Shown here piece after piece: positions 45,071 to 47,961 of a stretch of 64,000 nucleotides of DNA (the first letter of the stretch is position 1; each line of letters opens with the position of its first letter). The notes below the pieces were generated by a model. It searched no databases. It was not told where the DNA came from and saw only the letters and a program-made list of their open reading frames with translations. Source of the DNA: Dehalococcoidia bacterium (GTDB lineage Bacteria > Chloroflexota > Dehalococcoidia > SpSt-223); NCBI GenBank assembly GCA_026003895.1, contig BPIC01000006.1:229495-293494 (forward strand), written 5' to 3'. The position numbers and the translations under genes were made by a program.

Positions 45071-45193
45071 CGCGTCCTCCGGCACGAACTGTAGCCGATT
45101 GGCAATGCGCCGGGAATCGCTTTGGGTCCGTGCCTCCGGGACGCCGCGGAGCCGATGGTTGCGCAGGAGCAGGGAGCCGCCTACCCTGTCGCC

Positions 45194-45835
45194 ATGCGAG
45201 ACGTTCACCTGACCGCGGAGGACCTTGCGCTCTTGCGGACGTTACGACGCTATCTCGCCTTGGACGACCCGCTTGGGGCGCGAGCGACGGTTCCAAACAT
45301 CGTCCGCTACATCGCGCTCCGCGACTCGGCCGACGAAGCAGCGCAACGAGGCGCAGGCCGACAGGCGGCGGGCTATCGCCTCCAACAGCTCGGCCTCGAG
45401 CGCCAGCATGTCGTGAGCCGGTTTGTCACCGTCGGCGTGGTTCTCCTGCTGCTGACGCTGACGTTGGTCGAAGGGGTGCGGGCTTGGAGCGACTTCAGCC
45501 GAATCGTTCCCGGGCTCCAAGCGGCGCTAGGCGCGGCGACCAGCCCTGATTTTTCGAAGGTCGACGCCAGCTTCCTCGTACCGGATCCCCTGCGCGGGCG
45601 CTTCACGCCTGACCCGGAGCGCGCGTTCGCACCAGTCATCGAAGACTATCGCCAGCGTTCCCAAGCGGGAATCGCCGAGGTGCGCGGCGCGGTGACCGGG
45701 ACGGCAGTTCATCTCTTGCTGGCCGTCGTGCTCGGGGTCGGGGCGCTCGTTTTCGCCGTTCTCCAACCACACGAGCTGGTTCGGCGTTGGCTGCTTCCCC
45801 TGCTCGGTCGGCTGTTGCTCCTGCGAGGGCCCTGA
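45194..45835 (+). CDS. hypothetical two-helix membrane protein (213 aa)
   Basis: ATG 45194. Residues 1-75 are soluble (VHLTAEDLALLRTLRRYLAL); a helix VTVGVVLLLLTLTLVEGV begins near 77. A soluble loop of about 85 residues follows, then a second helix LLLAVVLGVGALVFAVLQ before the C-terminus. TACCCT 6 nt before the ATG suggests a leaderless promoter. No family recognised. Confidence 0.65.
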   Translation: MRDVHLTAEDLALLRTLRRYLALDDPLGARATVPNIVRYIALRDSADEAAQRGAGRQAAGYRLQQLGLERQHVVSRFVTVGVVLLLLTLTLVEGVRAWSDFSRIVPGLQAALGAATSPDFSKVDASFLVPDPLRGRFTPDPERAFAPVIEDYRQRSQAGIAEVRGAVTGTAVHLLLAVVLGVGALVFAVLQPHELVRRWLLPLLGRLLLLRGP

Positions 45836-45878
45836 TCACCGCCGAAGCTCCAACATTGTGAACGGGTCGCGATCAGAG

Positions 45879-45922
45879 CTTTTACCGACGTTAACGTTGC
45901 GTTCATCTTCCTCGCCTACCGT
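45879..45922 (+). promoter_or_regulatory. candidate Pho box and promoter of the PhoX gene
   Basis: Three adjacent 11-nt units (CTTTTACCGAC 45879, GTTAACGTTGC 45890, GTTCATCTTCC 45901) resemble tandem PhoP/PhoB half-sites, strongest in the last two. A TACCGT -10 at 45917-45922 follows about 5 bp later and no conventional -35 is visible, as expected for activator-dependent phosphate-starvation promoters. Placement before a PhoX phosphatase fits this reading. Confidence 0.5.
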
Positions 45923-45928
45923 CCTGGT

Positions 45929-45947
45929 GATCGGGCAGCGCCCGATC
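45929..45947 (+). other. 5'-leader hairpin before the PhoX gene
   Basis: GATCGGGC-AGC-GCCCGATC makes an 8-bp perfect stem with a 3-nt loop. It lies between the predicted transcription start and the ribosome-binding site (AAGGAGATC). It could protect the mRNA or modulate initiation, or be an operator. No homologous motif was found elsewhere in the window. Confidence 0.45.
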
Positions 45948-45975
45948 GAGTGTGACTTCGCGAAGGAGATCCAGT

Positions 45976-47961
45976 GTGACCGACCGAGACACGTCAATTG
46001 GCACTCCCGATCACGGCGTCGGCGAGCTGTGGGGCGATGTGCTCGACCGCTTCTTGAGCCGCCGTGGCTTCCTGAAGGCGAGCGCGGCGCTCGGCGCAGC
46101 GACGGCCGCCTCCGGTCTTGCGCTGAATGCCCCGGCAGCGGATGCGGCAGGGCTCGACTTCACGCCTATCCCCGGCGATCCGCCGGACGCCGATCGCCTT
46201 GTGGTCGCACCCGGGTATCGGATGCAAGTGCTGATCCGGTGGGGCGACCCAATCCTCCCGGGCGGCGAGCCGTGGAGCCCGGAGCGGCAGAGCGCCGAAA
46301 TGCAAGAACGCCAATTCGGCTATAACTGCGACTTCGTCGGGTATCTCCCACTCCCGTATGGCTCGAACAACCCGAACCGGGGCCTCCTCGTGGTCAATCA
46401 CGAGTACACCAACCCCGAATTGATGTTTGCCAATTTCTCGCTCAGTCGCCTGACGAGGGAGCAGGCGGACATCCAGATTGCGGCGCATGGGATTTCGGTG
46501 GTCGAGGTCGAGCGCCGGCCGGACGGGACGTGGCGCTACGTGCCCAATTCGCCGTACAACCGGCGAATCACGGCAAATACCCCGATTCAGCTGACCGGTC
46601 CCGCCGCAGGCCATCCCTGGTTGGTCACGAGCCAAGATCCAACCGGCAGTTGGGTGCTCGGCACGTTGAACAACTGCGCCGGCGGCAAGACCCCGTGGGG
46701 CACCGTCCTGTCGGGCGAGGAGAACTTCAACGGCTATTTCGATAACGCAGGTCAGATCCCGACCAGCGACCCACGACGCGCAAGCATGAACCGCTACGGC
46801 ATCCCCACCGGGATGGGACGCTACCAGTGGAGCCGCTATCACGACCGCTTCGACGTCGCCAAGGAGCCAAACGAGAGCTTCAAGCACGGCTGGGTCGTAG
46901 AAATCGACCCCTACGATCCGACCTCGACGCCGAAAAAGCGCACCGCCCTCGGCCGGCGCAAGAACGAAGCTGCGACCTATGCCATCAACCCCGACGGGCG
47001 GCTGGCGATCTACATTGGCGACGATGAGCGCTTCGACTATGCCTACAAGTTCGTGCCAACGGGCCGCTTCAACCCCAACAATCGGGCAGCGAACATGGAT
47101 CTGCTCGACAGCGGCACCCTGTACGTTGCCAAATTCAACGACGACGGCACCGGTCAGTGGCTCCCACTGGTCTGGGGCGAAGGCCCACTGACGCCTGCCA
47201 ACGGCTTTGGTTCGCAGGCAGACATTCTGATCAACACCCGCCAAGCTGCCGATGCCCTTGGCGCGACGAAGATGGACCGGCCGGAAGACTTCGAATGGAA
47301 TCCGGTGAACGGCAAAGTCTATCTCGTGCTGACGAACAACAGTGACCGGGGCGCACCGGGCCGTGCCGGGCCGGATGCCGCCAACCCGCGGCCAAACAAC
47401 CGCGCCGGCCACATCATCGAGATCACCGAAGCGAACAACGACGTTACCGCCACCACGTTCACGTGGAACATTTTCATCCTCGCTGGGCGGCCAAGCGACC
47501 CAACAAGTTGGTATGCCGGGTATCCGAAGGATCGCGTCAGCACCTTGGGCGCCCCGGACAACATCGTCTTCGACCAGTTGGGGAACATGTGGGTGGGCAC
47601 CGATGGCGCAAGCTCGGCGGTGCAACTCAACGATGGCCTGTTTGCCGTCCCCCTCGAGGGAAGCGAGCGCGGCCATCTCCAGCAGTTCTTCAGCGCCGTT
47701 GCCGGTGCGGAGGTCTGCGGGCCGGAGTTCAACACCGACGAGACGACGCTCTTCCTCGCCGTCCAACACCCGGGCGAAGACGGTACGGTCGAAAACCCGA
47801 TCAGCACGTGGCCAGATGGGCTGCCCTACCCGAGGCCGTCCGTCATCACCATCGTTGCCGAAAACGGAGGCCGCATCGGCATGGCAGGCAGCACCGGCCG
47901 ACAAGCTGCCTCACGGCCGACTGGCGGGCTCGGAGACCTGTTCCGCAACCTTCTCCCCTAG
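45976..47961 (+). CDS. PhoX family alkaline phosphatase (DUF839-like), Tat-exported
   Basis: 661 residues. A twin-arginine signal (FLSRRGFLKASAALGAATAA) is followed by an Ala-rich region. The catalytic-site region typical of calcium/iron PhoX enzymes follows as NCAGGKTPWGTVLSGEENFN, with GYNCDFVGYLPLPYGSNNPN and LVVNHEYTNPELMFANFSLS before it. It releases phosphate from phosphomonoesters outside the membrane. GTG 45976 has GAAGGAGATC upstream. It is convergent with the C39 gene, with a strong shared hairpin between them. Confidence 0.88.
   Translation: MTDRDTSIGTPDHGVGELWGDVLDRFLSRRGFLKASAALGAATAASGLALNAPAADAAGLDFTPIPGDPPDADRLVVAPGYRMQVLIRWGDPILPGGEPWSPERQSAEMQERQFGYNCDFVGYLPLPYGSNNPNRGLLVVNHEYTNPELMFANFSLSRLTREQADIQIAAHGISVVEVERRPDGTWRYVPNSPYNRRITANTPIQLTGPAAGHPWLVTSQDPTGSWVLGTLNNCAGGKTPWGTVLSGEENFNGYFDNAGQIPTSDPRRASMNRYGIPTGMGRYQWSRYHDRFDVAKEPNESFKHGWVVEIDPYDPTSTPKKRTALGRRKNEAATYAINPDGRLAIYIGDDERFDYAYKFVPTGRFNPNNRAANMDLLDSGTLYVAKFNDDGTGQWLPLVWGEGPLTPANGFGSQADILINTRQAADALGATKMDRPEDFEWNPVNGKVYLVLTNNSDRGAPGRAGPDAANPRPNNRAGHIIEITEANNDVTATTFTWNIFILAGRPSDPTSWYAGYPKDRVSTLGAPDNIVFDQLGNMWVGTDGASSAVQLNDGLFAVPLEGSERGHLQQFFSAVAGAEVCGPEFNTDETTLFLAVQHPGEDGTVENPISTWPDGLPYPRPSVITIVAENGGRIGMAGSTGRQAASRPTGGLGDLFRNLLP

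Follow-up and report, generated by a model that had tools for sequence, protein, structure and literature searches.

We asked whether the tandem repeats in front of phoX, the gene for a predicted secreted phosphatase in this Dehalococcoidia bacterium, form a binding site through which phosphate starvation turns the gene on. An earlier note on this DNA had read them as part of a PhoP-activated promoter. Our analysis covered the whole stretch (the window; 64,000 nt, G000:C6:229495-293494), the 3.98-Mb, 80%-complete genome to which it belongs, and related genomes. It points with high probability to a Pho box of the PhoB/PhoP type, which stands in for the −35 element and turns phoX on in phosphate starvation.

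Results

The phoX gene and its promoter

phoX (45976-47961, GTG start) and the promoter and leader features described below lie on the plus strand. The gene encodes a PhoX-type alkaline phosphatase, the sole PhoX of the genome. The Pfam match of its product to PF05787 spans the full domain (3-515 of 515, E = 1.4e-161), the nearest solved structure is that of P. fluorescens PhoX (3zwu, E = 9e-132), and the nearest named relatives come from Chloroflexota MAGs. The product carries a Tat-like signal with the motif SRRGFLKA, its match to PF10518 (E = 3e-4, 21.0 bits) lying below the cut-off of 22.7. The Shine-Dalgarno sequence AAGGAG (45963-45968) is retained in two congeners, G002 and G001. A 13-nt direct repeat, GATCGAGTGTGAC and GATCCAGTGTGAC, surrounds it at 45944-45956 and 45968-45980, and is absent as a repeat in G002. 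The gene directly 5′ of the phoX promoter (45122-45835) encodes a membrane-like protein of 237 amino acids that has no Pfam match.

The gap between the end of this gene, at 45835, and phoX is occupied by the repeats and the −10 element, in the order TTTTACC-GTTAACGTTGC-GTTCATCTTCC, a 5-nt spacer TCGCC (45912) and TACCGT. We found the tandem 11-nt direct repeats described in the earlier note, with about 7 conserved bases, save that the first unit is one base out of register. The two proximal units, GTTAACGTTGC (45890-45900), which matches the GTTAAC/GTTTAC units found at pstS genes of the class, and GTTCATCTTCC (45901-45911), keep an exact 11-nt register. The distal unit, nominally 45879-45889, has to be moved by one base to TTTTACCGAC (45880-45889) before it fits the motif, and the spacing is then 10 nt. 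The last unit stands in place of a −35 element, 5 nt before the −10 element TACCGT (45917-45922), and a search for a σ70-type −35/−10 pair near the repeats found none, so that the −10 without a −35 was also correctly noted. The repeats thus cover the −35 position at the distance from the −10 element found at other promoters of this kind, as described below.

The same box at pstS and in related genomes

We compared the pstS upstream regions of 46 genomes of the class. Among 31 such regions from outside the genus that have a clear tandem, an xANNNT hexamer lies exactly 5 nt past the last unit in 17 (11 of them TANNNT), as compared with 0-5 at every other gap length from 0 to 19 nt. This preference is independent of the window's own sequence. 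Examples are the pstS promoters of G070 (GTTAACAAGCT GTTAACAATTG GAGAG TATAAT) and G031 (ATTAAACGCCC GTTAATGCGTC CTCCT TACGCT). From 21 pstS promoters of 21 genomes outside the genus, hand-picked after the 5-nt gap had been noticed, we built a 55-nt weight matrix of four units, 5 nt and the −10 element. Genome-wide scoring was by patterns and a covariance model; the matrix was run on the window and on selected loci.

The repeats recur, as the earlier note had proposed to check, upstream of the bacterium's own pstS, the first gene of a pst operon comprising pstS, pstC, pstA, pstB and phoU. Here the tandem units ATTTACATTCT GTTTACAGAGA AATTCAGCAGT GTTTACCTCCC are followed by TCCCC and TAGGCT, so a box stands before pst as well as before another phosphate gene of the genome, again with 5 nt to TANNNT. 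This site scores 15.7 bits, a value reached in 5 of 300 simulated windows, and on its own would be without genome-wide significance. In G002, whose PhoX is 89% identical, phoX is preceded by GCTTACACCCT CCTAACACACG GCTCATCTTTC TCTTC TACCGT, in which GCTCATCTTTC is the counterpart of the window's proximal unit and GCTTACACCCT is in register where the window's distal unit is not; a matching box also precedes pstS of G002. In G001, whose PhoX is 75% identical, the phoX upstream region reads GTTCATCAAAT CGCAACGTCAT GTTCACCGTGC GCTTACCTGGG TGGCG TATCAC. The 5-nt gap is thus kept at own pstS, at pstS of G002 and at phoX of both congeners. The boxes at G002 pstS (21.2 bits), G002 phoX (20.3), G001 phoX (15.8) and own pstS each give the top matrix score of their locus.

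When the same matrix was applied to 76 phoX loci of many phyla, the best hit fell in the phoX upstream region in 14, as compared with 1.4 expected. These include several actinobacteria and an Acidobacteria MAG (TTTAACTCAGG ATTTAATTGCT GTTTATGCACA CTTAACTCCCT GTCAG TACACT). Two phoX upstream regions of Thermomicrobiales (L004 and L005) have the repeats without the 5-nt gap. The 11-nt tandem geometry is therefore general and only the wording is local; accordingly, the ‘lineage-specific Pho box' of the earlier note holds for its GTTAAC/GTTCAT-like words and fails for its geometry, which is seen before phoX in other phyla.

A candidate regulator

The genome encodes eight full-length PhoB-like response regulators. 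One of them (L158:3537-4229) is the genome's best match, with 52-62% identity, to the pst-adjacent regulators of five classmates; the other seven reach about 50% at most. The adjoining kinase (L158:2168-3565, C4 locus) is in turn the best match to the kinases of these five pst-adjacent pairs. In a tree the regulator groups, with weak support, among pst-adjacent regulators, and its closest solved relatives include RegX3. For the kinase, NCBIfam places PnpS first and phoR_proteo third, and both members of the pair score below the equivalog cut-offs; they are not adjacent to pst in this genome. Judging from these similarities, the two genes probably encode PhoP and PhoR. Inspection by eye of the regions upstream of phoPR, in this genome and in classmates, revealed no evident Pho box.

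Two further loci (L163:3935-3989 and L164:4726-4780) carry 11-nt tandems of CTCAG/CTTAG type with a 5-nt gap to TANNNT. They adjoin paralogous OmpR-family regulator genes, and probably serve other two-component systems as autoregulatory boxes. Because these repeats share the geometry of the phoX box, the regulator cannot be named from geometry alone, and phoX could in principle be controlled by another OmpR/PhoB-family member, of which there are seven more full-length ones in the genome, and answer a different signal. We consider this improbable, as the words GTTAAC and GTTCAT at phoX fit the pstS class rather than the CTCAG class, and the matrix that scores them was trained on pstS only.

The leader hairpin

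Downstream of the −10 element, about at the inferred transcription start, lies the perfect 8-bp hairpin of the earlier note, GATCGGGC-AGC-GCCCGATC (45929-45947). Such a hairpin is only mildly unusual: by a rough base-composition estimate, about 1% of GC-rich leaders of 50 nt would contain one. G002 has the same 3′ arm, and its three changes in the 5′ arm all still pair as G.U. The perfect stem near +1 and the pairing kept in G002 would be consistent with the hairpin, and not the repeats, being the main control element, either as a stabiliser of the mRNA 5′ end or as a palindromic operator at the transcription start. Still, no comparable hairpin was found in the G001 leader and no second copy in the window, and the phoX leader folds no better than its shuffles (z = −0.98). 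We therefore regard control by the hairpin as even less probable than control by another regulator; a role in stabilising the 5′ end of the mRNA is possible but unsupported.

Significance of the phoX site

In a matrix scan of both strands, the phoX site (45868-45922) ranked first of 127,892 window positions with 26.3 bits, and the next unrelated site reached 10.0; in 300 first-order simulated windows the top score was 18.0. The pattern TTNAY-N6-TTNAY-N10-TANNNT has a single exact match in the 3.98-Mb genome, at phoX. The genus-style last-unit pattern GYTNAYCTYYNYYNNCTANNNT, which was designed on the pstS and phoX sites themselves, matches the genome without mismatch only at these two sites. 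A covariance model of the sites gave no match in the window with default filters; without filters it placed the phoX site first, but with an E-value of only 0.027. A crude scan of the window for GTTCAYC pairs (20 hits, 13.5 expected) showed no enrichment and did not set the phoX site apart; it was dropped as a test since the unit words vary. That the repeats are a chance AT-rich intergenic stretch resembling a Pho box, as the unenriched pair scan and the one unit off register might suggest, is the least probable explanation of all, given the 16-bit margin of the top-ranked site, a score that 0 of 300 simulations reached and the conservation of the box in two congeners.

Other candidate members of the regulon

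The covariance-model search led to a further site in the same genome (C1:448347-448401; L221:5348-5402), which scores 23.3 bits with the matrix. It precedes an operon (L221:5434-9577) for a family-5 solute-binding lipoprotein (SBP_bac_5), two ABC permeases and a Y_phosphatase3-family phosphatase. The G001 ortholog, 79% identical, has a 28.4-bit site upstream; in G002 the gene was not found at the E-value cut-off used. This operon is a plausible new member of the Pho regulon. Tentatively, the box may define a small regulon that includes it as an unrecognised phosphate-scavenging operon, whose products would take up a phosphorylated compound and dephosphorylate it.

Two other matrix matches were noted. 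One, of 16.7 bits and hence above own pstS, has CTTAGG/TTCACC/CTCACG units and lies 3′ of an ilvD-like gene (L159:6520-6574). The other, of 37.6 bits, lies in G001 (C111; L190:1499-1553), immediately 5′ of a 61-aa zinc-ribbon-like ORF. A second PBP_like_2 protein (G000:C2:82978-83595) was rejected as a Pho gene, its 12-kb locus having no matrix site above 2.9 bits.

Discussion

The repeats at own pstS, in congeners and across the class, their identical 5-nt gap and the probable PhoP/PhoR pair all favour the earlier reading of the phoX promoter as PhoP-activated. The anatomy of the box fits the PhoB/PhoP mechanism in each testable respect. We read it as a Pho box, and infer the phosphorylation-dependent binding, the activation and the response of phoX to phosphate. 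In phosphate starvation, PhoR would phosphorylate PhoP, which would bind the 11-nt repeats head-to-tail at the position of the missing −35 element and recruit σ and RNA polymerase to the TACCGT −10. The PhoX phosphatase, predicted to be secreted, would then free phosphate for the PstSCAB importer, itself predicted to be under the same kind of box.

Our literature search found no description of a Pho box in this class, with limited coverage of subscription journals; the box thus appears to have been undescribed in this lineage, whereas the mechanism itself is already known. A class of mostly uncultured bacteria would gain a phosphate-starvation motif of strict promoter geometry, and Pho regulons should thereby become readable from genomes. 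A secreted phosphatase and phosphate uptake would be placed under one switch in the class, and at least one unexpected member operon is indicated. The understanding of Pho control itself is unchanged, the phoX box being a further example of a well-known type of switch.

The E. coli PhoB box and the phoX box both consist of tandem 11-nt units in place of the −35 element, with different words. In the E. coli phoA promoter, 12 nt separate the conserved A of the unit from the −10 element, the same distance as here; in E. coli it is phoA, not phoX, that has this role. The E. coli word is CTGTCAT, and PhoB/PhoP activators bind head-to-tail on 11-nt direct repeats (PMC4415409). The E. coli box overlaps the −35 element, with contacts to σ and α having been modelled (PMC3348028), and structural models favour a strict spacing between the PhoB box and the core promoter (PMC10294691). 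The phosphatase itself belongs to one family with P. fluorescens PhoX over nearly its whole length, from a different phylum. In S. coelicolor, the PHO box of PhoP is made of 11-nt direct repeat units with the word GTTCACC (PMC4415409, PMC7866108), and Streptomyces also produces PhoX under phosphate limitation (PMC7866108). The S. coelicolor and phoX boxes are alike in their 11-nt tandems, in their close wording (here GTTCATC) and in the site upstream of pstS. They differ in that the lineage here is of Chloroflexota type and that the words of the class tend to GTTAAC/GTTAAT; the fixed 5-nt gap to the −10 element was seen at promoters of this class.
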